Shown here piece by piece: positions 21,177 through 49,497 of a stretch of 64,000 nucleotides of DNA. The stretch comes from Thermoanaerobacter sp. (GTDB lineage Bacteria > Bacillota > Thermoanaerobacteria > Thermoanaerobacterales > Thermoanaerobacteraceae). The stretch spans positions 186,001 through 250,000 of the forward strand of contig JADBKJ010000020.1 of the NCBI GenBank assembly GCA_014896455.1, written 5' to 3'. Below the pieces are notes generated by a model. The model was not told the origin of the DNA and made no database searches. It saw only the letters and a list, made by a program, of their open reading frames with translations. A program made the position numbers and the translations under genes. Every line of letters begins with the position of its first letter. The first letter of the stretch is position 1.

Positions 21177-21280
21177 TCTCACTTCCTTTTACTATCGGAT
21201 AATATATTGACAGTATATAAAGCTTTAAAAAAGGTTAAGTTAATTTTAGATTAAAATAAGCTGCAAAAAAGGAAGTGAGA
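21177..21280 (+). promoter_or_regulatory. SD-masking inverted repeat upstream of spoIVB
   Basis: 21177-21190 is the exact reverse complement of 21267-21280 (14 bp, spacer 76 bases). The right arm contains the spoIVB SD (GGAAGTGAG) and ends two bases before the ATG. The left arm starts 13 bases after the recN stop, upstream of the predicted sigma-F start site. Only transcripts reading through from recN would carry both arms and fold. Confidence 0.7.
21213..21242 (+). promoter_or_regulatory. Possible sigma-F promoter of spoIVB
   Basis: GTATA (21213-21217), 15 bases, GGTTAAGTTA (21233-21242) fits the sigma-F pattern GYATA-N15-GGNNANAHTR with one mismatch. The predicted start (about 21249) lies between the two arms of the surrounding inverted repeat. 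spoIVB is forespore-expressed in Bacillus. Confidence 0.45.
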
Positions 21281-21282
21281 GC

Positions 21283-22596
21283 ATGACAAAAAATACTGTA
21301 AAATTGCTACTTTTTATATCTTTGAGCTTTTTTTTAGTATTTGCAAATTATTTTACTCCTATACAAGATATAGCGAAAACTCCCTCAAGTTTTAAATTTT
21401 TTCAAGGTGAAAAAGTCAATTATAACTTTAATATACCAATAAAAGTAAGTTTTCAAGCCGATAAAAAAGGCTTTTTAAAAATTAATGAGACAGAAGATAA
21501 AAATGTTTTAAATTTGAAAGAACCTATTATTATAGAAGCGGTAAACACTGGCACAGTAAATTTGGATTTTAAGCTTTTTGGAATATTTCCTATAAAGCAT
21601 ATCAGTGTTGACATCGTTCCGACAATAAAAGTAGTACCGGGCGGCCAAGCGATAGGGGTCAAGTTAAATACAAAGGGAGTATTAGTAGTAGGTTATTCAG
21701 ATATAATGGGGGAGGACGGTAAAATTTATAGTCCTTATAAGCAAGGGAAAATACAAATGGGAGATATAATATTAGAAGTCAACGGCATAGAAATAAAGCA
21801 AGCAGAAGACATTACACAAATTGCAAATGGATTACAGGGAAAAGCATTAAAGTTAAAAATAAACAGAAAAAATAATATCTTTTATACTACGATTTATCCT
21901 ATAAAGTCAAAAGAGGATAGACAATACAGAATAGGTCTTTGGGTGAGAGACCACACTGCTGGTATAGGTACTTTAACCTTTTATTATCCTATTAGCAAGA
22001 TGTATGGAGCTTTAGGTCATGCTATAACTGATATAGATACTGGTCACATGTTATCAGTAGAAAATGGAGAGATTATGAATTCTAGAATTACTTCTATTGA
22101 CCAAGGGAGAAGAAGTAAACCTGGGGAGTTAAAAGGGATTTTTTTAGAAGAAGTTGATACAATAGGGAATATATTAAAAAACACTGAATTTGGAATTTAC
22201 GGGAATATGTATGAAGACTTTAATAACAATTTGTATGGCGAGATTCCTATAGCATATCAAAGCCAAATAAAAGAAGGGCCAGCTAAAATATTGGCTACCA
22301 TTGATAATACAGGTATACAGCAATTTGATATTGAAATTATCAAAAAAGCGTATCAAGAAACTCCTAGTCCTAAAAGTATGATAATTAAAATTATTGACAA
22401 GAATTTATTAAAAAAGACTGGAGGCATAATACAGGGTATGAGTGGTAGTCCTATTATACAAGATGGGAAACTGGTAGGAGCAGTTACTCACGTTTTTGTG
22501 AATGACCCTACAAAAGGATATGCGGTTTATGCAGAATGGATGATTAATGAAATGAATACTCTACTCAATAATAAGCAGGTTTTTACAAATAATTAA
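21283..22596 (+). CDS. spoIVB: SpoIVB signalling serine protease
   Basis: Forespore-secreted S55 protease that triggers pro-sigma-K processing. The 437-residue product has an N-terminal membrane/signal helix (LLLFISLSFFLVFANYF), a PDZ domain (about 120-205, with ILEVNGIEIKQAED) and the S55 domain. The catalytic His is in ALGHAITD and the Ser in GMSGSPII. The SD GGAAGTGAG lies inside a long inverted repeat. It lies just before spo0A, as in Bacillus. Confidence 0.96.
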   Translation: MTKNTVKLLLFISLSFFLVFANYFTPIQDIAKTPSSFKFFQGEKVNYNFNIPIKVSFQADKKGFLKINETEDKNVLNLKEPIIIEAVNTGTVNLDFKLFGIFPIKHISVDIVPTIKVVPGGQAIGVKLNTKGVLVVGYSDIMGEDGKIYSPYKQGKIQMGDIILEVNGIEIKQAEDITQIANGLQGKALKLKINRKNNIFYTTIYPIKSKEDRQYRIGLWVRDHTAGIGTLTFYYPISKMYGALGHAITDIDTGHMLSVENGEIMNSRITSIDQGRRSKPGELKGIFLEEVDTIGNILKNTEFGIYGNMYEDFNNNLYGEIPIAYQSQIKEGPAKILATIDNTGIQQFDIEIIKKAYQETPSPKSMIIKIIDKNLLKKTGGIIQGMSGSPIIQDGKLVGAVTHVFVNDPTKGYAVYAEWMINEMNTLLNNKQVFTNN

Positions 22597-22614
22597 AAAT
22601 TTTTAAGGGAAAAA

Positions 22615-22643
22615 GAAGGAAATTCAATTATTATGTAGAATAA
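22615..22643 (+). promoter_or_regulatory. spo0A: Sigma-H-type promoter of spo0A
   Basis: GAAGGAAAT (22615-22623), 11 bases, GTAGAATAA (22635-22643) match the sigma-H consensus fully. Bacillus spo0A has a sigma-H promoter in the equivalent place. Confidence 0.7.
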
Positions 22644-22681
22644 ATATTATATACTAATATTAGCAATGGGAGGTTAAATAA

Positions 22682-23464
22682 TTGGTTAAGAAGATTAGAG
22701 TGGGGATAGCAGATGATAACAAAGAATTTGCTACTATTTTAGCTGAGTATTTATCTGCTCAAGAAAATATTGAAGTGGTTGGTGTTGCTAATGACGGAAA
22801 CCAAGCGATTGAACTCATTAAAAATCAATCGCCAGATTTGTTAATTTTAGATATTATAATGCCATATTTAGATGGCATTGGTGTTTTGGAAAAGATAAAT
22901 GAAGAGCAATTAAAAAAGCCTAAAATTTTAGTCTTATCTGCAGTAGGCCAAGAAAAAATAACTCAACGGGCTATTGCATTAGGGGCAGATTATTATATTT
23001 TAAAACCTTTTGACTTAGCTATGTTGTCAAAAAGGATTTCTGAGCTTATGGAGCCTGAATTAGATGTAGTATCAAAGACTGTGTTTCCTGTGGTAAAAGC
23101 GAAGAAAAATTATGACCTTGAAGCAATGATTACAGAAATTATTCATGAAGTAGGAGTACCAGCTCATATAAAAGGCTATATGTATCTAAGAGATGCTATT
23201 TCTCTTGTTATTAGCAATATGGAGTATTTAAATTCTGTAACTAAAATGTTATATCCTAAAATTGCGGAAAAGTACAATACTACTCCTAGCAGAGTAGAAA
23301 GAGCTATAAGGCATGCAATAGAAGTTGCTTGGAGCAGGGGCAAAACAGAAGTCTTAAATGACCTTTTTGGATATACTATAAATGACGAAAAAGGCAAGCC
23401 GACAAATTCAGAATTCATCGCACTTATTGCTGATAAATTGAGATTGGGAATGAAAGCGGGGTAA
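22682..23464 (+). CDS. spo0A: Sporulation master regulator Spo0A, TTG start
   Basis: Response regulator that commits the cell to sporulation. The 260-residue product has a receiver domain (1-125) with IADDNKEF acidic pocket, phosphoacceptor Asp in [13 protein letters not shown] and switch Lys in YILKPFD. The C-terminal DNA-binding domain has [20 protein letters not shown] and the recognition helix region [16 protein letters not shown]. The start is a TTG eight bases after GGGAGG. It has its own sigma-H-like promoter and terminator. Confidence 0.98.
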
Positions 23465-23547
23465 AAGGGGTTAACCTCCCATTTCAAAAGGGCAACAAAC
23501 ATAAAATAGGGCGATAAATATCGAATTTTCACGGCGACAAATAAGTT

Positions 23548-23592
23548 ATGTCCTCTGTTTGTTAAAAAAAACAAATAGAGGGCATATTTTAT
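23548..23592 (+). terminator. Terminator after spo0A
   Basis: A stem of about 15 bp with two G-T wobbles pairs 23548-23562 with 23571-23585 and is followed by a T-rich tract. It closes spo0A. The 83 bases between the spo0A stop and this stem show no ORF or clear motif. Confidence 0.75.
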
Positions 23593-23682
23593 GTAATTGA
23601 CATGTTGACTTTTTATTTCATGTAGAAATTTTTTATGCTATAATAATAAACAATGGGATGTTACTTTATGGAGGAAGCTTGT

Positions 23683-24804
23683 ATGCAAATAACAGGTACA
23701 ATTAAAATGGATAAAAGAACCAAAAATTTAGTAAAAAGGCTAAATTTTGGAGAAATAGCTATAATTGACCATAGAGATATAGATGAAGTGGCTGCTGAAT
23801 CCTTGGTTGAAAAAAAAGTTTTGGCAATCATAAATGCTGATAAGTCTATAAGTGGCAGATATCCTAACATGGGGCCTTCTATTTTATGTGAGGCTGGAAT
23901 TCCAATTATTGACGATGTCGGGAAGGATATTTTTGATTTGTTGAAAGAAAATGACAAAATCACTATAATAGATAATGAAATATATAAAGATGGTGTGTTT
24001 ATAAAAAGCGGAAAACTTCTTACAAAGGACGTTATAAACTATAAATTGCAGGAAAGTCGCGAAAACATAGGTGTTGAATTAGATAAATTTATTGAAAATA
24101 CATTGGAATATGCAAAAAAAGAAAAATATTTTATCTTGGGTGGTGTTGAATTACCTAATACTAAAACTCGTTTTAAAAATAGACATGCTCTTGTGGTTGT
24201 TAGAGGAAAGGATTACAAAGAAGATTTGTTTACAATAAAACAGTATATTAACGATGTAAAACCGATTTTAATAGGTGTAGATGGAGGTGCAGATGCTCTT
24301 TTAGAGTTTGGCCTTGTTCCTGACATAGTCATTGGAGATATGGACAGTGTAAGCGATGAGGCTTTAAAAAAGGCTAATGAAATTATTGTTCATGCCTATC
24401 CCGACGGAAGAGCGCCGGGCTTGGAAAGAGTAACGGCATTAGGCCTTAAAGCAGAAATTTTTAAAGCTCCAGGTACAAGTGAAGATATAGCTATGCTTTT
24501 GGCTTTTGAAAAAGGTGCTGACTTAATTGTGGCTGTAGGGACCCATTCCAGCATGATTGATTTTCTGGAAAAAGGGAGAAAAGGAATGTCCAGCACTTTT
24601 TTAGTGCGTTTAAAAGTAGGTGAAAAATTAATCGATGCCAAAGGTGTAAATAAGCTGTACAGAGAAACTTTTAAAATTTCTTATATATTTAGCATTATAC
24701 TGGCAGCATTGATTCCTCTTGGAGTGATAGCGTATTTTTCACCACCTATGCAGCAGCTATTGAAACTATTACAGCTTAGAATTCGCCTTTTAATCGGATT
24801 TTGA
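23683..24804 (+). CDS. steA: SteA-like protein, thiamin-pyrophosphokinase-like fold
   Basis: Homologue of corynebacterial SteA, a proposed cytokinetic-ring-associated protein whose core resembles the thiamin pyrophosphokinase catalytic domain (VDGGADALLEFGLVPDIVIG, DMDSVSDEAL). It has 373 residues with a C-terminal hydrophobic helix (IFSIILAALIPLGVIAYF). The ATG at 23683 is five bases after GAGGAAG; ATGs at 23653 and 23668 lie in or before the SD. It is followed by a SteB/MctB-like gene, the pairing seen in Actinobacteria. The enzymatic substrate is unknown. Confidence 0.85.
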   Translation: MQITGTIKMDKRTKNLVKRLNFGEIAIIDHRDIDEVAAESLVEKKVLAIINADKSISGRYPNMGPSILCEAGIPIIDDVGKDIFDLLKENDKITIIDNEIYKDGVFIKSGKLLTKDVINYKLQESRENIGVELDKFIENTLEYAKKEKYFILGGVELPNTKTRFKNRHALVVVRGKDYKEDLFTIKQYINDVKPILIGVDGGADALLEFGLVPDIVIGDMDSVSDEALKKANEIIVHAYPDGRAPGLERVTALGLKAEIFKAPGTSEDIAMLLAFEKGADLIVAVGTHSSMIDFLEKGRKGMSSTFLVRLKVGEKLIDAKGVNKLYRETFKISYIFSIILAALIPLGVIAYFSPPMQQLLKLLQLRIRLLIGF

Positions 24805-24816
24805 GGAGGACTTTCT

Positions 24817-25743
24817 ATGAATATAAATATTAAATACTATGTTTTGACAATTGCTTCTATTTTTATTGCTTTAGGAATTGGAATTTTTATAGGTTTTATG
24901 TTAGATGGCCAAAAAGTTTTTTCAGAGCAACAAACTGCAATTATAAACGAGTTAGAACAAAAGTTTAAGGATTTGCAAACAGAAAATAATAATTTAAAAA
25001 ATACTGTTCAAGAGTTAAATAAACAGATAGGATATTACAATCAATATCATCAAATTATTTTTCCTGAGTTAGTAGCGGATAGATTAACGGGAGTGAAAGT
25101 AGCGATTATTGAAACTACAAATGAGTTTATATATTCTGGCATGAGAAATGCTCTTTTAAAAGCAGGAGCTACTATTGAGTCGATTACTGTTATAAAAGAC
25201 AGTTTTGATACTGGTGATGAATTGGAAGTGCAAAATTTAATAAACTTCCTTTCTAATAAATATGGAGTTACAGTAGACGAAAAGCATTTGAATGAATTTG
25301 TAGTTTCAAAATTAGCTAATGCTATTGTAACAGGTCAGGATGTGGACCTTATTAATTATTTAAAGGCAAATGGTTATATAGATTTTACAGGGATTCCAGG
25401 TAATACAGATTTTGTAATTATAGCTGGAGGAAGTAATGATAAAGATAATAATGTATCTTCTATAGATATTCCCATTATAAAACAAGTGAAGCTACTTAAT
25501 GTTCCTATTGTAGGTGTTGAACAAAGTGATACTAAATATTCCTATATTGATGCGTATAAAAAACAGCATATTTCCACAATAGATAATGTGGAAGATATAA
25601 TAGGGCAGACGTCGCTTATAATGGTAATGGAGGGTAAAGAAGGAAATTATGGAATTAAGCAAAGTGCAATGAGCTTAATGCCAGATTCTTTTATGAATAC
25701 TGACAATTCTACACATAATTCCTCTGCTAATTCTAAAAAGTGA
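24817..25743 (+). CDS. MctB/SteB-type membrane protein (copper transporter family label)
   Basis: The 308-residue product has one N-terminal transmembrane helix (about 7-28, LTIASIFIALGIGIFIGFML), a coiled coil (about 35-75) and an extracytoplasmic domain. It belongs to the family annotated as copper transporter/MctB, of which corynebacterial SteB is a member. With steA immediately upstream, a SteAB-like role at the division site or envelope is more likely than copper transport. That is inference. Confidence 0.8.
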   Translation: MNINIKYYVLTIASIFIALGIGIFIGFMLDGQKVFSEQQTAIINELEQKFKDLQTENNNLKNTVQELNKQIGYYNQYHQIIFPELVADRLTGVKVAIIETTNEFIYSGMRNALLKAGATIESITVIKDSFDTGDELEVQNLINFLSNKYGVTVDEKHLNEFVVSKLANAIVTGQDVDLINYLKANGYIDFTGIPGNTDFVIIAGGSNDKDNNVSSIDIPIIKQVKLLNVPIVGVEQSDTKYSYIDAYKKQHISTIDNVEDIIGQTSLIMVMEGKEGNYGIKQSAMSLMPDSFMNTDNSTHNSSANSKK

Positions 25744-25753
25744 GGGTAGATAA

Positions 25754-26440
25754 ATGAATAAAAAAGTTAGCGTATTGATACCTGCTTACAATGAAGAAGA
25801 AAGAATAATTGATACCATAAAGGGATTAAAAGATGTTGAAGAAGTCGATGAAGTCATCGTAATAAATGATGGCTCAACTGATAGTACTGCTGAAAAGGCA
25901 AGAAAAGCAGGAGCTAAAATAGTCAATATGAAGAGAAATGTTGGCAAAGGGACAGCTTTAAAAGAAGGTTTGAAATATGCAAAAAATGATGTGATAGTTT
26001 TTTTAGATGCAGATGTAGGTCTTTCGTCACGAGAAGTCAAAAAACTTATATTGCCTGTTCTTGAGGGAGAAGCAGATGTTACAATTGCTAAATTTCCAAA
26101 GACAAATATAAAAGCTGGATTTGGCTTTGTTAAAACTTTAGCCAGAAAAGGAGTAAAATACTTTACAGGATATGAAATTGAATCTGTCTTGTCAGGTCAA
26201 AGGGCTTTTAGAAAAGAGGTTTTAGAGAGTTTAAAAACTTTTTATAAAGGTTTTGGAATAGAAGTTGGTATGACAATAGATATATTAAAGAAAGGGTATC
26301 AAATAAAAGAAGTAGAAGTGAATATGACGCACTCTGTTACAGGGAGGAACTTGAAAGGCTTCCTGCACAGAGGTAAGCAGTTTTGGGATATACTAAAAGT
26401 ATTAGTGTATAAGTTGTTTTCAAAGAATATTAAAGAATAG
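25754..26440 (+). CDS. Family 2 glycosyltransferase
   Basis: Cytosolic-facing GT-A glycosyltransferase, 228 residues, with VSVLIPAYNEEERI, the nucleotide-binding INDGSTDST and the DxD-like FLDADVG. A QRAFRKEV segment resembles the Q-x-x-R-W-like acceptor region. No transmembrane segment follows. Its placement between steB and a polyprenyl-phosphate sugar-1-phosphate transferase-like gene suggests assembly of a lipid-linked envelope glycan. The donor sugar is unknown. Confidence 0.85.
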   Translation: MNKKVSVLIPAYNEEERIIDTIKGLKDVEEVDEVIVINDGSTDSTAEKARKAGAKIVNMKRNVGKGTALKEGLKYAKNDVIVFLDADVGLSSREVKKLILPVLEGEADVTIAKFPKTNIKAGFGFVKTLARKGVKYFTGYEIESVLSGQRAFRKEVLESLKTFYKGFGIEVGMTIDILKKGYQIKEVEVNMTHSVTGRNLKGFLHRGKQFWDILKVLVYKLFSKNIKE

Positions 26441-26451
26441 CAGGTGAGATA

Positions 26452-27264
26452 GTGTTTTTGACTAAAATATTAATTCCTTTAATAATGACAGTTATAACAA
26501 AAAAACTTTTTTATAGCATTATTAACAAGCCTTTGTGTTTGAAGGAAAACTATAAAAAAGTTATGATACCTGTTTGTGGTGGTATTGTATTTGTTCCTGC
26601 TTTATTTGTGTCAATTGTACTTCTCAATTTATTTGGAGTTAGAATAGAATATCAAGAGGTAATTTTATTGAGCTTATCACTGATTTCTTTTGTCGGTTTT
26701 ATAGATGATGTATTAGGAGACAGAAGTGTAAGAGGGCTAAAGGGTCATATAACTATGCTTTTAAAAGGAAAGCCTACTACAGGAAGTTTAAAGGCTTTAT
26801 CAGGAATTTTAATTGCGTTTTATGTGAGTTTTAATGTTGGAAAAAAAAATATAGAGGAATTGATAATAAATACCTTGATAATTGCACTTTTTACGAATTT
26901 TTTAAACCTTGTAGACTTGCGACCTGGAAGATGCGGAAAAACTTTTTTGATTATTTCTTTAATTTTTCTAATAATCGGGAAAACCTATCCCCATTTCTTA
27001 GTCTTGCTGACCATGATTCTTTTAGTGTATTTTCCAGAAGATTTAAAAGCAAATGTGATGATGGGAGACACTGGATCAAATGTTTTAGGAATGTCATTGG
27101 GAATAAGCAGTATTCTTATTTTTGATTTATATGGCAGGTTGGTAATATTGGCGCTGCTAATTTTATTACATATTTTTACAGAAAAATATTCTTTAACTGC
27201 TTTAATCGAAAAAAATAAAATCTTAAATTACCTCGATATGTTAGGAAGAAAAGGAGAAAGATAA
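26452..27264 (+). CDS. MraY/WecA-like polyprenyl-phosphate phosphoglycosyltransferase
   Basis: The 270-residue polytopic protein has PNPT-family motifs: GFIDDVLGD (acidic pair), NLVDLRPGR, and MMGDTGSNVLGMSLG. It is shorter than MraY (about 320) and lacks some N-terminal helices. It probably moves a sugar-1-phosphate onto undecaprenyl phosphate. A GTG at 26452 after AGGTGAG is used here; a TTG at 26458 is also possible. It lies downstream of a GT2 gene. Confidence 0.8.
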   Translation: MFLTKILIPLIMTVITKKLFYSIINKPLCLKENYKKVMIPVCGGIVFVPALFVSIVLLNLFGVRIEYQEVILLSLSLISFVGFIDDVLGDRSVRGLKGHITMLLKGKPTTGSLKALSGILIAFYVSFNVGKKNIEELIINTLIIALFTNFLNLVDLRPGRCGKTFLIISLIFLIIGKTYPHFLVLLTMILLVYFPEDLKANVMMGDTGSNVLGMSLGISSILIFDLYGRLVILALLILLHIFTEKYSLTALIEKNKILNYLDMLGRKGER

Positions 27265-27265
27265 T

Positions 27266-28342: not shown

Positions 28343-28450
28343 TTTGATTACTTCTCCTAAAGTTTTGTATTTTTTATTTAATTCCTTTAATAAAAATAAT
28401 AGGGTGGAAAATTTTCCAGCATAATAAAGAGTGTTTCCAACTATAATCAT
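28328..28450 (-). CDS. Small 40-residue protein with forespore-type promoter
   Basis: A 40-residue ORF starting MIIVGNTLYYAGKFSTLLF on the minus strand, opposite to its neighbours. It has a very good SD (GAGGTGAG, five bases before the ATG) and a perfect sigma-G-type promoter upstream. The C-terminus overlaps the 3' end of the DUF3866 gene by 15 bp. I do not recognise the family; the amphipathic middle (LLKELNKKYKTLGEVIKSV) suggests a helix. The promoter suggests a forespore product. Confidence 0.65.
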   Translation of the reverse strand: MIIVGNTLYYAGKFSTLLFLLKELNKKYKTLGEVIKSVSH

Positions 28451-28469
28451 TTTTCTCACCTCATTTCTA

Positions 28470-28497
28470 TAGTATGTATTTATTGCTAAAATCATAC
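28470..28497 (-). promoter_or_regulatory. Sigma-G/F-type promoter for the small minus-strand gene
   Basis: Read on the minus strand, GTATG (28493-28497), 16 bases, CATACTA (28470-28476) matches the sigma-G pattern GHATR-N16-CATNMTA completely. The start site would fall about 13 bases before the ATG at 28450. Confidence 0.55.
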
Positions 28498-28516
28498 ACG
28501 GAAAGGAAGATGAATT

Positions 28517-30225: not shown

Positions 30226-30228
30226 AAG

Positions 30229-30292
30229 GAATATTGTCCCCTTTTGAATCATAAATTTAAATTAGCTTTATAAAAAATAGGGGGCAATATTC
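30229..30292 (+). promoter_or_regulatory. SD-masking inverted repeat upstream of spoIIM
   Basis: 30229-30241 pairs with 30280-30292 over 13 bp (one G-T wobble, spacer 38 bases). The right arm includes the SD (GGGGG) and abuts the TTG start. The left arm begins three bases after the EndoQ stop and contains the -35 of the predicted promoter, so transcripts from that promoter lack it. Confidence 0.7.
30231..30257 (+). promoter_or_regulatory. Sigma-E-type promoter of spoIIM
   Basis: ATA (30231-30233), 16 bases, CATAAATT (30250-30257) fits sigma-E (ATA-N16-CATANNNT). Predicted start about 30262. spoIIM is sigma-E dependent in Bacillus. Confidence 0.5.
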
Positions 30293-30916
30293 TTGAAGTT
30301 TTTAAAAGGAAATCTTTATTTGCATATTAAAAATAATTTTTTATTGTATGTGTTGGCTGTAATGTCTTTAATGATAGGAATAGCAGCAGGATCTTTTACT
30401 GTTAATAACCTCACTGACATACAGATGGAGCAAATAATAGGATATATTTCGAAATTTTATCAAATTGCAAAATCTGTAGACTTGAATTCTGCCCAAATTT
30501 TTAAACAATCCCTTCTAAATAATTTTGTCACTGTTTTTGTTTTATGGATTTTAGGGGCTACAATTATAGGGATTCCTTTTATATTTTTGCTTGTGGGGAT
30601 AAGAGGGTTTATTTTAGGATTTTCTATTGGAGTTTTGATAAAAGAATTTCAAACAAAAGGGATACTACTCGTATTGATGGGAATTTTGCCTCAAAATATT
30701 TTTATCTTATTAGGAATCTTGTTTATATCTGTAACGGCTATTAATTTTTCTTTATATCTTTTGAAAAATCGCAAATTTTATTTAGAAGAATTAGTATCAC
30801 AATTCGTATCTTATACTTTTATGGTATATGTAGGGTTTTTAGTTATATTAATAGGCTGCTTGATAGAATCTTATCTTTCACCTTATATATTACTTTTACC
30901 GATTTTTTCACCATAA
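30293..30916 (+). CDS. spoIIM: Stage II sporulation protein M
   Basis: Polytopic membrane protein of the SpoIIDMP engulfment machine. The 207-residue product has an N-terminal cytosolic tail followed by five hydrophobic segments (for example YVLAVMSLMIGIAAGSF and VFVLWILGATIIGIPFIFLL). The TTG start lies immediately after the right arm of an inverted repeat. It precedes xerD and dacF as in Bacillus. Confidence 0.93.
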   Translation: MKFLKGNLYLHIKNNFLLYVLAVMSLMIGIAAGSFTVNNLTDIQMEQIIGYISKFYQIAKSVDLNSAQIFKQSLLNNFVTVFVLWILGATIIGIPFIFLLVGIRGFILGFSIGVLIKEFQTKGILLVLMGILPQNIFILLGILFISVTAINFSLYLLKNRKFYLEELVSQFVSYTFMVYVGFLVILIGCLIESYLSPYILLLPIFSP

Positions 30917-30918
30917 AA

Positions 30919-31883: not shown

Positions 31884-31912
31884 GTATAATATTCACCCTC
31901 CAGCGCAAAATA
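31884..31912 (+). promoter_or_regulatory. Possible sigma-F promoter of dacF
   Basis: GTATA (31884-31888), 14 bases, GCGCAAAATA (31903-31912) resembles sigma-F (GYATA-N15-GGNNANAHTR) with one mismatch and a spacing one base short. Predicted start about 31919. Bacillus dacF is sigma-F dependent. Confidence 0.4.
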
Positions 31913-31932
31913 AATAGTGATGAGGAGGGTGA
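31893..31932 (+). promoter_or_regulatory. SD-masking inverted repeat upstream of dacF
   Basis: 31893-31901 pairs perfectly over 9 bp with 31924-31932 around a 22-base loop. The right arm is the dacF SD (GGAGGGTG). The left arm lies inside the predicted sigma-F promoter, upstream of its start site. Confidence 0.6.
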
Positions 31933-31936: not shown

Positions 31937-33082
31937 ATGTTTAAAAGGCTTTTAACATTATTAGTGAGTGTGATACTAGTTATTTCTTTTGTCTTAAATG
32001 GTACAGTATATGCTGATACTTTAAATTTAAAGTCAAAATCTGCTATTTTGATAGAGGCTAATACTGGACAAATTCTTTATGAAAAAGATAGCCATAAGCC
32101 TTTGCCGCCTGCCAGTGTTACCAAAGTAATGACTCTTTTGCTGGCGATTGAAGCAATAGATTCTGGTAAAATTAAAATAACAGATAAAGTTGTCACAAGT
32201 AAACATGCCTTTGATATGGGAGGTACACAAATATATTTAGAAGTAGGAGAGGAAATGACAGTAGATGATTTAATGAAGGCTATAGCGATGAATTCGGCAA
32301 ATGATGCTTCTGTTGCTTTAGCTGAGTATATTGCGGGTACAGAGGAAAATTTTGTTGAAATGATGAATAAAAGGGCTAAGGAATTGGGAGCAAAAAATAC
32401 TACTTTTAAAAATGCAACTGGACTACCTGAGGAGGGGCACTTGACAAGCGTATATGATATCGCAATGATTTCAAGGGAATTAGCAAAGCACGAGAGCATA
32501 TTTAAATATCTAACCAATAAATTAGATTCTTTAAGAAATGGGAAATTTAGTCTCATAAATACTAATAAATTATTATGGCGCTATAAAGGAGCAGATGGTA
32601 TTAAAACTGGATCTACTTCGGAAGCACTTTATTGTATGGCAGCAACAGCTAAAAGGGGGGACACAAGGCTAATAGCAGTTGTATTTGGAGCACCTGATTC
32701 TGAGACGAGGTTTAGTGAAGCTACTAAGTTATTAGATTATGGATTTGCTAATTATGAAAGTGTAAAAGTAGCTTCAAAGGGGCAAAGTTTTGGCAATGTA
32801 AAAATTTTTAAAGGAAAAAAGCAGGCTGTTAGTGTTGTGTGCCGCGATGATGAGTATATACTGATTAAAAAAGGAGAAGGTAAAAATATAAAAACAGAGG
32901 TGGAGCTCAAGAATGCTGTATTAGCTCCTTTGGCCAAAGAGGTCCCAATAGGCACTGTAAAAATAACACAGGATGGCAAGATTATAAAGACATTTAACAT
33001 ATATCCTCAGGAAGTAGTAGAAAAAGCTAACTTTTTTGAAAATCTCAATAAAGTTTTTATTGGATGGCTAAGATATCAGTAG
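31937..33082 (+). CDS. dacF: D-alanyl-D-alanine carboxypeptidase DacF
   Basis: Low-molecular-weight penicillin-binding protein trimming pentapeptide stems, in Bacillus made in the forespore. The 381-residue product has a signal peptide (LLTLLVSVILVISFVLNGTVYA), SxxK in ASVTK, SxN in NSAND, KTG in IKTGSTSE and a C-terminal beta domain with an amphipathic anchor. The ATG at 31937 follows GGAGGGTG. It is upstream of spoIIA as in Bacillus. A paralogue lies at 41.3 kb. Confidence 0.94.
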   Translation: MFKRLLTLLVSVILVISFVLNGTVYADTLNLKSKSAILIEANTGQILYEKDSHKPLPPASVTKVMTLLLAIEAIDSGKIKITDKVVTSKHAFDMGGTQIYLEVGEEMTVDDLMKAIAMNSANDASVALAEYIAGTEENFVEMMNKRAKELGAKNTTFKNATGLPEEGHLTSVYDIAMISRELAKHESIFKYLTNKLDSLRNGKFSLINTNKLLWRYKGADGIKTGSTSEALYCMAATAKRGDTRLIAVVFGAPDSETRFSEATKLLDYGFANYESVKVASKGQSFGNVKIFKGKKQAVSVVCRDDEYILIKKGEGKNIKTEVELKNAVLAPLAKEVPIGTVKITQDGKIIKTFNIYPQEVVEKANFFENLNKVFIGWLRYQ

Positions 33083-38920: not shown

Positions 38921-38922
38921 AG

Positions 38923-40150: not shown

Positions 40151-40219
40151 GGAAGGATTAATAATAAAGACCCAAATATTGTTTAGAAAAGGCTTATAAA
40201 CAGCGTAATATGGGGTGAA

Positions 40220-40831: not shown

Positions 40832-40837
40832 AAATAA

Positions 40838-41284: not shown

Positions 41285-41308
41285 AAAGTGGGGAATCCCA
41301 CTTTTTTG
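41283..41308 (+). terminator. Terminator after ytfJ
   Basis: Short GC stem (GTGGG with CCCAC, 41288-41301) extended by A-T pairs and followed by six T. Confidence 0.8.
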
Positions 41309-41327
41309 TATATAAAGGAGGCATAAA

Positions 41328-42467: not shown

Positions 42468-42485
42468 ATATGACTCAAGAGGGAT
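42457..42485 (+). terminator. Hairpin at the left border of repeat copy 1
   Basis: Perfect 11-bp stem (42457-42467 with 42475-42485) containing the stop codon of the carboxypeptidase gene. No T run follows directly; the repeat element begins at once. Confidence 0.7.
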
Positions 42486-42750
42486 CAGACTGTAGACAAA
42501 CTTTCGCAAAGGAGATATTTTGCAATCGGTGCGACTTGTTACAAAGCGGTAACAAAACTTAGCGAGACTGAGGGTGGAGGCAGGGCCGAAGCCATGGATG
42601 GCGAAGGCGGGCACCTGAGGCAAGGAGGCCGATTGTGCCCGGTACCCTGCCGGAGCCCGAAGGTCGAGCTTTAGTTTTGTCGCTTTGGAACATCGGAGCG
42701 ACGATGCAAAATATCTCCTTTGAATATTTTTTAACTTTGTCAACAAACTG
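42486..42750 (+). repeat. Terminator-associated palindromic element, copy 1 (265 bp)
   Basis: GC-rich element in AT-rich DNA, about 92% identical by eye to copy 2 at 57991. Ends are inverted (CAGACTGTAGACAAACTTT against AACTTTGTCAACAAACTG). An inner arm, AAAGGAGATATTTTGCA at 42508, is exactly complementary to TGCAAAATATCTCCTTT near 42707. The core holds further nested stems (CGGGCAC/GTGCCCG, GGCAGGG/CCCTGCC, GCCA/TGGC). A short minus-strand ORF here is not conserved as protein. Probably a structured RNA or a non-autonomous mobile element. Confidence 0.85.
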
Positions 42751-42751
42751 C

Positions 42752-42776
42752 GAGAGTATTTCGTATACTCTCTTTT
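42752..42776 (+). terminator. Hairpin with T-tract at the right border of repeat copy 1
   Basis: 8-bp stem (42752-42759 with 42765-42772) followed by TTTT. Confidence 0.7.
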
Positions 42777-42844
42777 ATTATTGTATATTTTGTGATAGAA
42801 TTAACTTAAACATACCACATATAGTAATAATGCGAGGTGGTAAC

Positions 42845-43816: not shown

Positions 43817-45092
43817 AGTTATTGTAATAGGTGGAGGTTGGGCTGGTTGTGCAGCTGCTTTAACGGCTCGAAAAGCAGGGGCGGAAGTAGTGCTTTTAGA
43901 AAAAACTGATATGCTTTTGGGATGTGGACTTGTAGGAGGTATAATGAGAAACAATGGAAGATATACTGCTGCAGAAGAACTTATATATTTGGGTGGAAAT
44001 GAACTTATTGAAATAACAGATAAGGCAGCAAGACATGTAAATATCAACTTTCCTGGCCATGCTCATGCAAATCTGTATAATGTGTCAATGGTAGAACCAA
44101 TGATTAGAAAAATGTTACTTGAAAAAGGGGTTACTATTAAGCTGATGACAAGAGCTACAGATGTTGTGATGGAAAGAAAAAAAAGAATAAAAGGAATAGT
44201 TTTAGCAGATGATACTATAGAGTATGGAGATGTTTTTATAGAAACTACTGGTTCTACAGGACCTATGGGCAATTGCCTAAGATATGGAAACGGATGTGCT
44301 ATGTGTATTTTAAGGTGCCCTTCTTTTGGTCCTCGAATTAGCATAAGTTATAGGGCAGGGGTAGAAGACCTTTTAGGAATGAGGGCAGATGAAGTTTATG
44401 GTGCTTTTAGTGGTTCATGTAAATTAAATAAAGAATCTTTAAGCAAAGAGATAAGAGAAAAGCTGGAAAGAGATGGAGTAGTAGTATTGCCTGTGCCTAA
44501 AGAAGATATTAACATGGAAAAATTGAATTTGAAGGTGTGTCAACAATATGCATTGCCAGAATACGCAGAAAATGTTATACTATTAGATACTGGTTATGTA
44601 AAGCTCATGACTCCTTTTTATCCATTAGAAAAACTTAGAAAAATTCCTGGCTTAGAAAGAGCACGTTATGATGACCCCTATTCTGGAGGAAAAGCTAATT
44701 CTGTAAGATATTTGTCAATGGCACCGCGAGATAATACAATGAAAGTTATAGGTTTAGAGAATTTATTATGTGCAGGGGAGAAGTCTGGCTTGTTTACTGG
44801 GCATACTGAGGCAATGGTGACAGGATGTCTTGCTGGACATAACAGCGTAAGATTAGCTCTTGGCATGCCTCTTTTGGAGTTGCCAAGGAATTTAGCTTGT
44901 GGTGATTTGATAGCATATGCTAATGAAAGCATAAAGACGAAAGAAGGCTTGAAAAAGAGGTATACTTTTGCAGGGGCAGAATATTTTGAGAGGATGAAAC
45001 AATTAGGCCTTTATACTACTGATACCAACTTGATAAAAGAAAGGATCATGAGAAATAATTTATTAAAAATTTATGACGAAAAACTTGTATAA
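43809..45092 (+). CDS. FAD-dependent oxidoreductase, TrmFO/GidA-like fold
   Basis: The 427-residue flavoprotein has an N-terminal Rossmann dinucleotide site (VIVIGGGWAGCAAALTARKA) and a C-terminal FAD segment (LLCAGEKSGLFTGHTEAMVTGCLAGHNS) like TrmFO. A Cys cluster (NGCAMCILRCP, about residues 160-170) could hold a metal or be redox-active. Translational overlap with the preceding electron-transfer gene suggests a two-component oxidoreductase. Not TrmFO itself by overall sequence. Substrate unknown. Confidence 0.82.
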   Translation: MVKVIVIGGGWAGCAAALTARKAGAEVVLLEKTDMLLGCGLVGGIMRNNGRYTAAEELIYLGGNELIEITDKAARHVNINFPGHAHANLYNVSMVEPMIRKMLLEKGVTIKLMTRATDVVMERKKRIKGIVLADDTIEYGDVFIETTGSTGPMGNCLRYGNGCAMCILRCPSFGPRISISYRAGVEDLLGMRADEVYGAFSGSCKLNKESLSKEIREKLERDGVVVLPVPKEDINMEKLNLKVCQQYALPEYAENVILLDTGYVKLMTPFYPLEKLRKIPGLERARYDDPYSGGKANSVRYLSMAPRDNTMKVIGLENLLCAGEKSGLFTGHTEAMVTGCLAGHNSVRLALGMPLLELPRNLACGDLIAYANESIKTKEGLKKRYTFAGAEYFERMKQLGLYTTDTNLIKERIMRNNLLKIYDEKLV

Positions 45093-45114
45093 ACGAAAAA
45101 ATGGGTGAACACAA

Positions 45115-45825
45115 ATGGAAAGGTTGCAAAAATACTTAGCAGAATGTGGAATAGCCTCACGAAGAAAGTGCGAAGAGTATATTTTACAAGGCCGTGTAAA
45201 AGTAAATGGAAAAGTAGTAAAAGAGTTGGGAGTAAAAATCAATCCTGATGTTGACATAATTGAATTTGATGATAAAATTGTGAGAAGAGAAAAGAAAAAA
45301 GTTTATATTATGTTAAATAAGCCAACAGGATATATTACTTCCGTAAAAGACCAGTTTGGCAGGCCTACAGTGATGGACTTAGTTAAAGTTAAGGAAAGAA
45401 TATATCCTGTTGGCCGCTTAGATTATGATACATCAGGGCTTATGTTATTCACAAATGATGGGGAGATAGCCAATATCTTAATGCATCCTCGGCATGAAAT
45501 TGTGAAGACGTATATTGCAAAAATCAAAGGAATTCCAACACAAGAAGAGTTGGAAAGGTTTAGAAATGGACTTTTGATAGGGGATTATTTGACTTCGAAA
45601 GCAGAAATAGAGATTTTAGCAGTTAAAAATGGGACAAGTGTTGTAGAAATAAAAATTCATGAAGGGAAAAATAGACAAGTTAGAAAAATGTGTGAGGCTA
45701 TTGGACATCCTGTTATTTCTCTTACAAGAACTAAAATTGGTGAGTTATCTTTAGAAGGGTTAAAACCAGGAGAGTGGAGGTATTTGACACAAAAGGAAAT
45801 AGATTATTTAAAAAGCTTGAGGTGA
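45115..45825 (+). CDS. rluB: Pseudouridine synthase RsuA/RluB family
   Basis: rRNA pseudouridine synthase. The 236-residue product has an N-terminal S4 domain (RLQKYLAECGIASRRKCEEY) and the catalytic GRLDYDTSGLMLFTNDGE with the nucleophilic Asp, plus HEGKNRQVRKMCEAIGHPV. RluB (23S) is the more likely member for a Firmicute, but RsuA cannot be excluded. Confidence 0.92.
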   Translation: MERLQKYLAECGIASRRKCEEYILQGRVKVNGKVVKELGVKINPDVDIIEFDDKIVRREKKKVYIMLNKPTGYITSVKDQFGRPTVMDLVKVKERIYPVGRLDYDTSGLMLFTNDGEIANILMHPRHEIVKTYIAKIKGIPTQEELERFRNGLLIGDYLTSKAEIEILAVKNGTSVVEIKIHEGKNRQVRKMCEAIGHPVISLTRTKIGELSLEGLKPGEWRYLTQKEIDYLKSLR

Positions 45826-45828
45826 AGT

Positions 45829-46093
45829 ATGTTTTCAGTTAACTTTGCTAAAGCAGAGGATTTCGAAATTATTAAAAAAATTGCTAATGAGTGTAAATAA
45901 CTAATTTGGCAATTTTGCCTTCCTACAGGGATAAGGGGTTTGAAAATTTAATGGTAAGAGTAGTACTTAATCATGCTCCTAGATATGGGGTTAGAAAATG
46001 CTTGTTTCTTAAAGATTTTTTTGTAAATTAGGTTTTAAAGAAAAAGGCGATTTTTAGATAGTTAAATTAAAAGAGTTTTTTGGGAAAGTGAGA
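45829..46093 (+). pseudogene. Decayed GNAT-type acetyltransferase remnant
   Basis: Just after rluB, a start with SD GAGGTGAAG reads MFSVNFAKAEDFEIIKKIA, a typical GNAT N-terminus, and stops after 23 codons. Further on, other frames encode NHAPRYGVRKCLFLKDFF and then LGFKEKGDF followed by IVKLKEFF, the order of the C-terminal half of such enzymes. Stops, a frameshift and an internal deletion (a full enzyme needs about 450 bp) show decay. This explains the otherwise gene-free gap before speE. Confidence 0.65.
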
Positions 46094-46136
46094 TATTTTT
46101 TTAAATATATTATTAAAAATCTTGGAGGTGTTTTCA

Positions 46137-46970
46137 ATGGAATTATGGTTTACAGAAAATCAGGATGAAAATTTGAGATTTTCTTTGAAAGTTAAAGAAA
46201 CATTGGTGGTGGAAAAGACTCCTTATCAACATTTAGCAATACTCGATACATATCAATTTGGAAGAGTATTAACTTTAGATGGTATACTTCAAACCACTGA
46301 AAAAGATGAATTTGTATATCATGAGATGATAGTACATGTACCCCTCTTTACTCATAAAAATCCAAAAAGCGTGTTAATTGTTGGAGGCGGAGATGGAGGC
46401 TCAGTAAGAGAGGTCTTAAAGCATCCTTCTGTAGAAAGAGTAGTTTTAGCAGAAATTGACGAGGCAGTAGTAAGAAATTCTAAAAAATATCTTCCTACAA
46501 TAAGCCAGGCATTAGATGACCTAAGAGTAGAAATAATGATTGGAGATGGAATTAAATATGTTACTGAACACAAAAATGAATTTGATATAGTAATAGTGGA
46601 TTCTACTGACCCAATTGGGCCAGCTGTAGGGCTTTTTACTTCTGATTTTTATAAAGCCGTATATGAATGCTTGAAAGAAGATGGTATTATTGTTGCTCAG
46701 ACAGAATCACCTTTTATTTATGGGAAATTGATAAACAAACTCAGCAAAATGTTCAAAGAAATATATCCTATTGCAAAAGCATATATAGCAACAATACCTA
46801 CTTATCCAGGAACTTTGTGGACTTTTACCATGGGTTCAAAAAAATATGACCCTGAAGAAGTGGACATAAATTCTATTCCAAGAATAGATACTAAATACTA
46901 TACACCTGAAATTCACAAAGCAGCCTTTGTATTGCCTAAATTTGTGAAGGATATTTTTGATGAGGTGTAA
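46137..46970 (+). CDS. speE: Spermidine synthase (polyamine aminopropyltransferase)
   Basis: Transfers aminopropyl from decarboxylated SAM to putrescine. The 277-residue product has [11 protein letters not shown]-like [17 protein letters not shown], the nucleotide loop [17 protein letters not shown] and the catalytic [16 protein letters not shown] at 46137 after GGAGGTG. speB follows at once; speD at 62.5 kb supplies decarboxylated SAM. Confidence 0.96.
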
Positions 46971-46971
46971 T

Positions 46972-47838
46972 ATGATAGAAGGAAAATATTTTGTTAATCC
47001 GGGAAAGTTTTTAGGGGCTACTGAAGATTATGAAAAGGCAGAGGTGGTTATAGTAGGTTTGCCTATGGATTACACAGTGAGTTTCAAAGCAGGAAGCCGC
47101 TTTGGACCTGCTGCCATAAGGCAAGCCTCTTATGGTTTAGAATATTATAGTGTGTATTTAGATAGGAGACTGGAAGATAAGAAATTTTATGATTTAGGAG
47201 ATTTAGTACTTCCTTATGGGAATGTGGAAAAGAGTTTAGATTTAATCTCAAAAGCTACAGAAGACATTTTGAAAAGTGGAAAAAAAGGATTGTTCTTGGG
47301 TGGAGAACATTTAGTGACTTATGGAATTTTAAAAGAGTACTTAAAAAAATATGAGGATAACCTTATAATCCTTCATTTTGATGCCCATACTGATTTAAGA
47401 GAAGAATTTTTTGGTGAAGCATATTCTCACGCTACAGTGATGAGAAAAGTATGGGATATTGGTAATGGTATTAAAATGTATAATTTTGGGATAAGGTCAG
47501 GTGAAAAAGAAGAATTTGAGTTTGCAGAAAAAAATACCCATATGTTTTTGTATGAAGTAGTTGAACCTTTGAAAGGTGTAATTGATGGTATAAAAAATTA
47601 TCCAATTTATATTAGCTGGGATATAGATGTTGTAGACCCTGCTTTTGCACCAGGCACTGGTACACCAGAACCAGGGGGAATAACCACAAAAGAGGCATTA
47701 GAGGCTATTCATATTTTAAAAGATTTAAATGTCGTTGGGATGGATTTGGTGGAAGTCTCGCCTTCTCACGATATAGCTGGTATAACCTCTATTTTAGCAG
47801 CTAAACTTATAAGAGAATCTATTCTTTCCTTCTTCTAA
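46972..47838 (+). CDS. speB: Agmatinase (arginase-family ureohydrolase)
   Basis: Hydrolyses agmatine to putrescine and urea with a binuclear Mn centre. The 288-residue product has GGEHLVTYG, LHFDAHTDLREEF, SHATVMRK and SWDIDVVDPAFAPGTGTPE, all metal or substrate motifs. Adjacency to speE favours agmatinase over arginase. The ATG at 46972 overlaps the speE end region, with GAGGTG as SD. Confidence 0.95.
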   Translation: MIEGKYFVNPGKFLGATEDYEKAEVVIVGLPMDYTVSFKAGSRFGPAAIRQASYGLEYYSVYLDRRLEDKKFYDLGDLVLPYGNVEKSLDLISKATEDILKSGKKGLFLGGEHLVTYGILKEYLKKYEDNLIILHFDAHTDLREEFFGEAYSHATVMRKVWDIGNGIKMYNFGIRSGEKEEFEFAEKNTHMFLYEVVEPLKGVIDGIKNYPIYISWDIDVVDPAFAPGTGTPEPGGITTKEALEAIHILKDLNVVGMDLVEVSPSHDIAGITSILAAKLIRESILSFF

Positions 47839-47844
47839 AATTTT

Positions 47845-47858
47845 GAGCCTTTTGGCTC
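47845..47858 (+). terminator. Hairpin at the left border of repeat copy 3
   Basis: Five-bp stem GAGCC/GGCTC with a TTTT loop, seven bases after the speB stop. Its sequence is repeated (one change) at 47924-47937 on the other side of the element. Confidence 0.6.
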
Positions 47859-47859
47859 T

Positions 47860-47922
47860 CAGTTTGTTGACAAACTTTCGAAAATATCCTATTTTAAAAT
47901 TTTTGACTTTGTCAACAAGCCG
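47860..47922 (+). repeat. Core-deleted derivative of the palindromic element, copy 3 (63 bp)
   Basis: Shares the inverted ends of the long copies (CAGTTTGTTGACAAACTTTCG left, TTTGTCAACAAG right) and the AAAATATCC strip of the right inner arm, but lacks the GC-rich core. It therefore looks like an internal deletion product. It lies between speB and the carboxyltransferase gene. Confidence 0.75.
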
Positions 47923-47923
47923 T

Positions 47924-47944
47924 GAGCCTTTTGGTTCTTTTTTT
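47924..47944 (+). terminator. Hairpin with T-tract at the right border of repeat copy 3
   Basis: GAGCC-TTTT-GGTTC stem (one wobble) followed by seven T: a normal terminator that duplicates the left hairpin. Confidence 0.7.
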
Positions 47945-47995
47945 ATTTTGTTTCTTTTGAAAAAATAGTATAATATATTATGAGGAGGTATTAAT

Positions 47996-49393
47996 ATGAG
48001 CAATAAAATTAAAATTACAGAAACTATATTAAGAGATGCCCATCAGTCACTCTTGGCTACTCGAATGTCGACGGAAGAAATGCTCCCAATTGCAGAAAAA
48101 TTGGATGCAGTAGGATATTATTCTATTGAAGCGTGGGGAGGAGCTACCTTTGATGCTTGTATGAGATTTCTTGACGAAGACCCTTGGGAAAGATTAAGAA
48201 GATTAAAGAAAAGGATAAAAAATACACCTCTTCAAATGCTTTTGAGAGGGCAAAATCTATTGGGATATAGGCATTATCCTGATGATATAGTGGAAAGATT
48301 CATTGAGAAGGCTGTTTACAATGGAATAGATATAATAAGAATTTTTGATGCTTTAAATGATGTACGAAATCTTGAAGTTGCTATAAAAGCTACTAAAAAG
48401 GCGGGAGCTCACGCTCAAGGTACCCTTGTTTATACTATAAGTCCTGTTCACAACATTGACCATTATATTAAAGTAGCAAAAGAGTTGACAGAATTAGGAG
48501 TAGATTCCATATGTATAAAGGATATGTCAGGAATATTAACTCCTTATGTTGCTTATGAGTTAGTAAAAAGCCTTAAAGATACAGTAAATGTTCCTATACA
48601 GTTGCACAGCCATTATACGAGTGGAATGGCGGCCATGACTTATCTTAAAGCAATAGAGGCTGGAGTAGATATAATAGACACTGCTATTTCACCTTTGGCA
48701 TTAGGAACTTCTCAACCTGCTACAGAAACAATGGTGGCAGCTTTAAAAGGCACTCAATATGACACTGGTTTGAATATGGAGTTATTATCAGAGATTGCTT
48801 CATACTTTAAAGAAGTAAAACAAAATCACAATAAAGAAATAGATTTATCTATGGTTATGGGTGTAGATACAGATGTATTAATTTATCAAGTTCCAGGAGG
48901 AATGCTATCAAATTTGATTTCCCAATTGAAACAGCAAAATGCTTTAGATAAGTACCCGGAGGTTTTAAAAGAAATTCCTAAAGTTAGAGAAGAACTAGGA
49001 TACCCACCTCTTGTTACTCCTATGAGTCAGATGGTAGGGACTCAAGCCGTCTTGAATGTAATAACTGGAGAAAGGTATAAAATGGTACCAAAAGAAGTAA
49101 AAGATTATGTGAAAGGACTGTATGGTAGACCACCAGCGCCAATTTCAGAAGAAATAAAGAAAAAAATAATAGGAGATGAAGAGGTAATAGATGTTAGACC
49201 AGCAGATCTTTTAAAACCGCAATTTGAAGCGATTAAAGAAGAGATTAAAGAGTATTATGAACAAGAAGAAGATGTTTTATCTTATGCTCTTTTCCCACAA
49301 GTAGCAAAGAAATTTTTTGAATACAGAAGAGCAAAAAAGTATCAAATAGATGCAACTCTTCTTAATATGGAATATATGACATATCCAGTATGA
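47996..49393 (+). CDS. oadA: Oxaloacetate decarboxylase/pyruvate carboxylase carboxyltransferase subunit
   Basis: TIM-barrel carboxyltransferase moving CO2 between oxaloacetate/pyruvate and biotin. The 465-residue product has ETILRDAHQSLLATRM, EAWGGATFDACMRFL, the carbamylated-Lys region SICIKDMSG and metal ligands LHSHYTSG. The C-terminus ends in the conserved carboxylase domain; there is no biotinyl domain (no MKM motif), so a separate biotin carrier must be encoded elsewhere. Single gene with its own promoter-like TATAAT. Confidence 0.92.
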   Translation: MSNKIKITETILRDAHQSLLATRMSTEEMLPIAEKLDAVGYYSIEAWGGATFDACMRFLDEDPWERLRRLKKRIKNTPLQMLLRGQNLLGYRHYPDDIVERFIEKAVYNGIDIIRIFDALNDVRNLEVAIKATKKAGAHAQGTLVYTISPVHNIDHYIKVAKELTELGVDSICIKDMSGILTPYVAYELVKSLKDTVNVPIQLHSHYTSGMAAMTYLKAIEAGVDIIDTAISPLALGTSQPATETMVAALKGTQYDTGLNMELLSEIASYFKEVKQNHNKEIDLSMVMGVDTDVLIYQVPGGMLSNLISQLKQQNALDKYPEVLKEIPKVREELGYPPLVTPMSQMVGTQAVLNVITGERYKMVPKEVKDYVKGLYGRPPAPISEEIKKKIIGDEEVIDVRPADLLKPQFEAIKEEIKEYYEQEEDVLSYALFPQVAKKFFEYRRAKKYQIDATLLNMEYMTYPV

Positions 49394-49394
49394 C

Positions 49395-49420
49395 AAGGAA
49401 TAATTCTTCCTGTTTTTTAA
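49395..49420 (+). terminator. Weak terminator after the carboxyltransferase gene
   Basis: A short stem AGGAA/TTCCT followed by a six-T run. Confidence 0.45.
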
Positions 49421-49429
49421 ATTTAAAAA

Positions 49430-49497
49430 TCCCTCCTGTAACATATATTTTTATCCTTCATAACATGTAGTAGAAAGTTTAAGTTTAAAAGGAGGGA
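49430..49497 (+). promoter_or_regulatory. SD-masking complement upstream of the LysM coat gene
   Basis: 49430-49437 (TCCCTCCT) is the exact complement of 49490-49497 (AGGAGGGA), the SD of the LysM gene. The left arm is upstream of the predicted sigma-K/E start (about 49470), so only read-through RNA would contain it. Confidence 0.5.
49441..49466 (+). promoter_or_regulatory. Sigma-K/E-type mother-cell promoter
   Basis: AC at 49441, 16 bases, CATAACAT (49459-49466) fits sigma-K (AC-N16-CATANNNT). An ATA at 49443 also allows a sigma-E reading. It fits a coat-type gene. Confidence 0.5.

Follow-up and report, generated by a model that had tools for sequence, protein, structure and literature searches.

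Four sporulation genes of a Thermoanaerobacter sp., namely spoIVB, spoIIM, dacF and a LysM spore coat gene, each have a Shine-Dalgarno sequence (SD) that is complementary to a segment just behind the stop codon of the preceding gene, and we consider it likely that these elements and their kin are cis-acting translational locks against read-through transcription. The four leaders lie in one stretch of 64,000 nucleotides (nt; positions 186,001 to 250,000 of contig JADBKJ010000020.1, assembly GCA_014896455.1), hereafter the window; in the genome set analysed, it belongs to contig C13 of G000. The segment behind the upstream stop is called the left arm and its complement over the ribosome binding site (RBS) the right arm; "genus" refers to the Thermoanaerobacter genus genomes, G003 included, and g2 denotes another genus, probably Thermoanaerobacterium. 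A sporulation polymerase would start inside the element and produce an RNA without the left arm and with a free RBS, whereas transcription continuing from the growth gene in front would produce an RNA with both arms, which would pair and mask the SD.

Results

Four window leaders with a ribosome binding site complementary to upstream sequence

Genes were called mechanically by a simple script, and every leader with enough upstream sequence was scored by the best helix that its RBS region can form with the sequence in front of it. The four leaders took ranks 1-4 among the 33 window leaders in both versions of the scan, with helix energies of -23.7 (spoIVB), -26.9 (spoIIM), -20.5 (dacF) and -17.7 (LysM). 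Two hundred dinucleotide shuffles of the upstream region, with 0.005 as the smallest reachable value, gave p = 0.005 for each of the first three and 0.020 for the LysM gene, compared with 0.070 and 0.065 for the next-best leaders at 42635 and 56539. The original prediction of SDs complementary to a segment past the preceding stop, made for these four genes, thus held when the arms were re-read at all four sites (with one G-U pair at spoIIM) and compared with shuffled controls. A strong terminator-like hairpin was also found by eye before spoIIIAA, where a strong terminator had been predicted instead of a complementary SD. Rfam at gathering scores, applied across the window, gave no match at the four leaders. 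Coordinates are listed in Table 1.

Table 1. Arms, predicted promoter elements and genes of the four window elements, followed by features discussed elsewhere in the text. Window positions carry no prefix; promoter elements were read by eye against the sporulation-sigma consensus sequences.
Feature	Position	Strand	Sequence or family	Remarks
spoIVB left arm	21177..21190	+	TCTCACTTCCTTTT	13 nt behind recN stop; in 10/10 genus genomes (by eye)
spoIVB predicted sporulation-sigma promoter block	21207..21245	+	TTGACAGTATATAAA...AAGGTTAAGTTAA	
spoIVB right arm	21267..21280	+	AAAAGGAAGTGAGA	over spoIVB SD; direct reading and helix scan; helix 14 bp, loop 76 nt
spoIVB	21283..22596	+	TIGR02860	SpoIVB peptidase
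spoIIM left arm	30227..30242	+	AGGAATATTGTCCCCT	1 nt behind stop of TIGR00375-family gene; includes -35-like GAATATT (30229-30235)
spoIIM predicted sigma-E -10	30250..30257	+	CATAAATT	14 nt past the -35-like element
spoIIM right arm	30279..30294	+	AGGGGGCAATATTCTT	over SD and into TTG start; helix 16 bp (one pair G-U), loop 36 nt
spoIIM	30293..30916	+	TIGR02831	
dacF predicted -35	31884..31889	+	GTATAA	left arm within its spacer
dacF left arm	31893..31901	+	TCACCCTCC	20 nt behind xerD stop
dacF right arm	31924..31932	+	GGAGGGTGA	over dacF SD; helix 9 bp, loop 22 nt
dacF-type D-Ala-D-Ala carboxypeptidase	31937..33082	+		precedes spoIIAA-spoIIAB-sigF; name rests on gene order, NCBIfam yields the carboxypeptidase class alone
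LysM coat gene left arm	49430..49437	+	TCCCTCCT	36 nt behind stop of pyruvate carboxylase subunit B/oxaloacetate decarboxylase alpha gene
LysM gene predicted sigma-E/K type -10	49459..49469	+	CATAACATGTA	between arms; kept in g2/g3
LysM gene right arm	49490..49497	+	AGGAGGGA	over its SD; helix 8 bp, loop 52 nt
LysM coat gene (safA)	49504..49926	+	TIGR02899	SafA/ExsA-family spore coat LysM protein
Terminator-like hairpin	49394-49419			in front of LysM gene; imperfect in the window genome
235-amino-acid protein	56539-57246	+	no NCBIfam/Pfam match	behind glutamate dehydrogenase gene; moderate SD complement
OLE RNA	14185-14787	+	RF01071	578 bits; sole Rfam match of the window
Peptidase-MA family gene	G001:98574-99380 (L055:18574-19380)			scan hit
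gltX	G001:395421-396878 (L070:15421-16878)			scan hit; growth gene
pyrH	G001:1271606-1272319			scan hit; rejected
Transposase genes with strong RBS helices	G001:305948-307165; 1425014-1425940; 166373-167416; 194481-195524		IS256, IS30	family labels cover the first two; last two: arms identical to those of the IS30 gene

Predicted SD accessibility

RNA folding was used to compare long RNAs with 200 nt of upstream sequence (for the LysM gene also 400 nt) with RNAs beginning at the predicted start. At 65 °C, which we take to be the growth temperature, the predicted opening of the SD was 7e-5 in the long versus 0.20 in the native RNA for spoIVB, 1.5e-5 versus 0.26 for spoIIM, 1.6e-6 versus 0.19 for dacF, and 6e-5 (6e-4 with 400 nt) versus 0.044 for the LysM gene, so that all four genes are predicted to be more open in the short RNA. 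In a uniform comparison of 31 plus-strand leaders, each with 180 nt of upstream sequence and cut at -45, the predicted closing of the SD by upstream sequence amounted to 6.5 kcal/mol for spoIIM, 5.7 for spoIVB and 5.2 for the LysM gene. These were the top three of the 31 leaders, followed by a value of 3.1; dacF came seventh with 1.3 kcal/mol, because the cut at -45 retains its left arm.

Promoter placement

Promoter-like blocks, recognised by eye, are conserved between the arms or in such a way that the left arm forms the spacer. At spoIIM, GAATATT followed after 14 nt by CATAAATT is a near-perfect match to the sigma-E consensus, with CATA(A/G)ATT at the -10 position in 13 of 13 aligned rows, and the left arm coincides with the -35 plus part of the spacer. 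For dacF and sigG the left arm appears as the spacer of a GTATA-type promoter, and at spoIIE a TATAAT lies between the arms. The entire promoter block of spoIVB is found between the arms in the genus, and this block is also kept in g2/g3 genomes without the lock. The sporulation-sigma promoters proposed originally are therefore plausible as read by eye, and with the predicted promoters placed in this way the native RNA would be expected to start past the left arm.

Joint change of the arms in relatives

Relatives appear to retain the pairing while the letters of the arms change. The upstream region of each species was paired both with the RBS region of that species and with the RBS regions of the others; the resulting permutation p values, for which species count as exchangeable, should not be taken as exact. 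Cognate arms paired better, with p ≤ 0.0017 in each case, for spoIVB, spoIIM, dacF, safA, spoIIE, yabG, spoIID and sigG; these eight genes plus ylbJ reached a combined z of -10.1, compared with +0.42 for nine control leaders. The controls include spo0A, spoIIAA, xerD and pyrH, and three of the nine (24817, 25754, 26452) begin 10-12 nt past the previous gene, which makes their upstream sequence coding. The safA result is weakened, because the start assumed for G006 is probably wrong. Since the test genes other than sigG had been picked from the Thermoanaerobacter genus, the test was repeated on a reduced set without G000, G004 and G006 (G003 was kept), with a z of -7.9 versus +0.47 for the controls. 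The gene sigG was picked from the literature, and sigG and safA were added after the first version of the test. Two further genes had been selected by the genome scan described below before their relatives were viewed: spoVK gave p = 0.0015 (0.007 in the reduced set) and the Peptidase-MA family gene p = 0.0007 (0.033). Column-wise covariation was set aside, because the arms slide a few nt between species and fixed column pairs in the MAFFT alignments of the dacF, spoIIM, spoIIE and spoIID leaders were out of register.

Distribution of locks and terminators

Further sporulation genes with locks are spoIIE, the spoIID-family gene, spoVK, yabG, ylbJ and sigG, and across genes and species the loop varies from 17 to 78 nt. 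The spoIVB lock is present in all ten genus genomes and absent in all ten g2/g3 genomes read, where in nine g2 genomes a terminator-like hairpin replaces it (by eye). In two further families of this order, all four genomes carry spoIVB locks of very different sequence, with the arms rewritten to AAATGCCACTCTC/GAGAGTGGTATTT in G021 and to TCCCACTTTAAG/CTTAAAGTGGGA in G020. By eye, the status before spoIVB is thus a lock in g1, a terminator in g2 and both in family f2, and before spoIIIAA it is a terminator. The locks of spoIIM and dacF were found by eye in all ten genus genomes. The nine g2/g3 genomes read also have them, with arms that differ in sequence; four of the nine were scored (-15 to -25 kcal/mol for spoIIM, -16 to -21 kcal/mol for dacF). 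That of the LysM gene is clear in eight of ten genus genomes and weak in G001 and G006 (by eye). The spoIIE lock occurred in all ten genus, five g2/g3 and two f2 genomes searched, and in four g2 genomes and G011 its left arm is shifted upstream with the SD match retained. The arms of spoVK are rewritten in f3, and in G021 they read GCCACTTTTTTGCATAT/ATATGTAAAGAGGTGGC.

For sigG, a lock is found in G000 (ATCCTGCC/GGCAGGAT, p = 0.010), and 13 of the 40 leaders used (of 56 loci, near relatives of G000 and G010 being excluded from the sample) had p ≤ 0.01. Among the seven families reaching this value, Thermoanaerobacter and six others, the arms differ. The distant genomes G038-G041, G045, G046, G084, G087, G088, G116, G119, G120, G145 and G146 each hold one more SigG-like protein, possibly SigF, that scores under the family cut-off.

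Genome-scale scan

The scan covered 800 kb of G001, or 34% of the chromosome, with co-directional and divergent leaders kept separate. A first scan (four pairs, narrow SD core, left arms ≤32 nt from the start excluded) had overlooked sigG in several genomes and gltX in G003 and was replaced by a second one. Among co-directional leaders, 30 of 308 had a shuffle p ≤ 0.01, about ten times the expectation of ~3. Of the divergent leaders, 8 of 102 reached this value; they were set aside, because in several of them the SD of the opposite gene (CCTCC) mimics a left arm. Ten of the 30 hits counted as sporulation genes, comprising the orthologues of spoIIM, spoIVB and dacF plus seven more. Family labels cover some of the 30, other hits being without any family. 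They identified spoIIE (TIGR02865), yabG (TIGR02855), ylbJ (TIGR02871), spoVK (TIGR02881), an alpha/beta small acid-soluble spore protein gene (SASP, PF00269), a SpoIID-family gene (SpoIID/LytB domain above the cut-off, spore_II_D below) and a PdaB/YlxY-type deacetylase gene (below curated cut-offs). The other hits include spoVG, which was left out of the sporulation count, a PBP2/SpoVD-like gene directly before sigK, an IS256 transposase gene, an IS30 transposase gene together with two more genes whose arms are identical to its own, a transposase-like helix-turn-helix gene, gltX, a Mg P-type ATPase gene, pyrH and further genes.

For comparison, 40 leaders were drawn at random from the 174 that formed the weak-helix pool of the first scan. 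The second scan turned three of them (spoVG, the IS30 gene and a gene of 88 amino acids) into hits, and the remaining 37 contained two sporulation genes, sigK and spoIIR. The share of sporulation genes was 10/30 among the hits versus 2/37 in the sample (one-sided Fisher p = 0.004), and 7/27 versus 2/37 without the three genes of the window (p = 0.025). Sporulation genes are thus enriched, yet the arrangement is common to other genes as well. With 20 bp and -30.3, the lock of the Peptidase-MA family gene ranks first in the scan. It persists in g2, G011 and G003, where the arms have changed, and is missing from f3; this gene may possibly be a new sporulation gene. The pyrH hit was rejected as a chance match: what serves as left arm is the terminator in front of the gene, the pairing occurs in some species only, and the swap p was 0.61.

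Discussion

The likely function of the four elements as translational locks, put forward in the original prediction, is supported by the joint change of the arms and by the predicted accessibility of the SD. In the mechanism proposed here, transcription from the gene's own promoter begins past the left arm, which in several genes forms the -35/-10 spacer, so that RNA from the sporulation promoter would be made without it and the SD would be free, whereas in a leaked message both arms would pair, hide the SD and leave the message untranslated. Such a lock would act in cis and require no protein, and its benefit could be that spore proteins are kept out of growing cells or of the wrong compartment.

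Several observations weigh against this interpretation. The start sites were deduced from promoters read by eye against the consensus, and since they are predicted, silencing of read-through transcripts alone is something that we infer. The native RNAs are also predicted to be mostly closed at 37 °C, with an SD opening of 1e-4 to 0.02 compared with 1e-9 to 6e-7 in the long RNAs. The LysM lock is the weakest of the four; in eight of ten genus genomes its gene has an intact-looking terminator too (by eye), and in all nine g2/g3 genomes the lock is absent and terminator-like hairpins are found there (by eye). Losses affect other genes as well: spoIIM and dacF have no lock in G021, that of spoIIE is absent in f3/f4, that of yabG is lost in f2/f3, and that of spoVK is weak or absent in f2. 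A phylum-wide draw for sigG yielded a lock in 4 of 26 loci, these being the new loci among the best 30 matches, out of 106 genomes with a match. In the swap test, ylbJ reached only p = 0.058 (0.21 in the reduced set). The first version of this test had given weaker values for spoIVB (0.020) and ylbJ (0.096), with 0.042 for gltX and p ≤ 0.0017 for the other five locks; between the versions, the spoIVB starts of G021 and G023 were reset by hand (one had been mis-set) and the helix function was changed.

The specificity for sporulation genes needs correction. The pattern had originally been reported at sporulation genes alone, but it is not confined to them: gltX has it, and transposase genes have similar helices. 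Several sporulation genes lack it, namely spoIIR and sigK among the sampled weak-helix leaders of G001 and spo0A, spoIIAA and spoIIIAA in the window. The growth gene gltX has a lock with TATAAT between the arms that is conserved in ten genus genomes including G003 (swap p 0.016; 0.17 in the reduced set). A strong scan hit can moreover be due to chance, as was the case for pyrH.

The hairpin could instead belong to the native sporulation mRNA, with a start upstream of the left arm, and tune or time translation, be it by sensing temperature or by regulated opening of the RBS. A thermometer is imaginable in a thermophilic genus, but even at 65 °C the long RNAs reach a predicted opening of 1e-6 to 6e-4, so that the heat of growth would not open the hairpin. 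In favour of a hairpin in the native mRNA, a small RBS hairpin is described for the native leader of B. subtilis sigG (PMC5942855). Since the promoter-like blocks conserved between the arms, or around the left arm as spacer, speak against a start further upstream, we regard this explanation as improbable. It is also unlikely that the pairing was selected for the sake of the upstream mRNA, as a hairpin protecting or processing its 3' end or as a weak transcription stop, with masking of the SD as a by-product. The left arms do start ≤37 nt past the upstream stop, and terminators and locks are partially interchangeable at spoIVB, but the four window elements do not resemble intrinsic terminators, given their loops of 22-76 nt and the lack of a long T run 3' of the right arm (TTTT at dacF). 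Furthermore, the RBS is the partner in every gene, although the search was designed to find RBS partners, and spoIIE still pairs to the RBS after its left arm has moved.

As inverted repeats that flank or overlap promoters, the arms might also act at the DNA level, for example as an operator for a sporulation regulator. An operator is very unlikely, however, considering that the letters of the arms vary by gene and family while the pairing persists, and that the loop varies in length as given above. The least credible explanation is chance complementarity to purine-rich SDs; real cases exist in pyrH and in several divergent leaders, where the opposite SD reads CCTCC, but for the set as a whole chance is contradicted by the shuffle p values, the cognate-versus-swapped test and the success of spoVK, which had been chosen beforehand.

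Beyond the lock function of the four elements, we lean slightly towards a general anti-leak layer, in which a large share of the sporulation genes of Thermoanaerobacter and its relatives, under sigma A/Spo0A as well as the sporulation sigmas, would encode locks, often in or next to a promoter spacer that is otherwise free, with locks re-evolving repeatedly and swapping with terminators. The genes concerned would be spoIIE, the spoIID-family gene, spoIIM, spoIVB, spoVK, sigG, dacF, yabG, ylbJ, the safA-like gene, SASP and others. Sporulation genes often stand directly behind growth genes, and bacterial terminators leak; it looks as if a lock and a terminator were two ways to deal with this leak, used one in place of the other or both together. 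If promoter spacers often double as RNA locks, they would hold information, and a translational layer of sporulation control would extend far past the single proposal made for sigG. A lock combined with a sporulation-type promoter would then be a sequence-only marker of genes that need silence and would point to new sporulation genes, one example being the Peptidase-MA gene and its 20-bp lock. As a caution, RNA detected over a sporulation gene during growth does not have to imply protein.

Comparable arrangements are known from other systems. In insertion sequences such as IS10 and IS50, the transposase is protected from outside promoters by an RBS hidden in read-through RNA, and the IS256 and IS30 transposase genes of G001 show similar helices, with the difference that these are mobile elements and have no part in development of the host. 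An intrinsic terminator in front of a sporulation gene, as at spoIIIAA, has the same apparent purpose of excluding upstream transcription, but such terminators act on transcription, require a U-run and do not involve the RBS. For B. subtilis, terminator read-through, raised without Rho, is described in PMC5540618. The RBSs of the phage T4 genes e (lysozyme), soc, 49 and I-TevI are sequestered in long upstream transcripts, and late-promoter transcripts of gene e have no 5' strand, the promoter lying within the region that encodes this strand, with a reported ~100-fold repression of the early long transcripts (PMC3014915). The four sporulation genes share with gene e an RBS complementary to an upstream segment and, by prediction, an RBS hidden in the long and open in the short RNA; they differ in belonging to a cellular developmental programme with, by prediction, several sigma factors instead of a phage. 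B. subtilis sigG (spoIIIG) agrees in gene class and logic: as cited in PMC5942855, Masuda 1988 and Sun 1991 concern a hairpin of 20+ bp that was proposed to stop transcripts entering from spoIIG and that cannot form in the native transcript. That proposal concerned one gene, whereas sigG locks are found here in Thermoanaerobacter and several other families, and many genes are covered with comparative evidence, B. subtilis itself being outside the sample. Our search of the open-access literature found no description of such locks across many sporulation genes, which is not proof of absence. Taken singly, the locks belong to a known kind; what appears to be new is how many genes have one, the encoding in promoter spacers at several of them and the repeated re-evolution.

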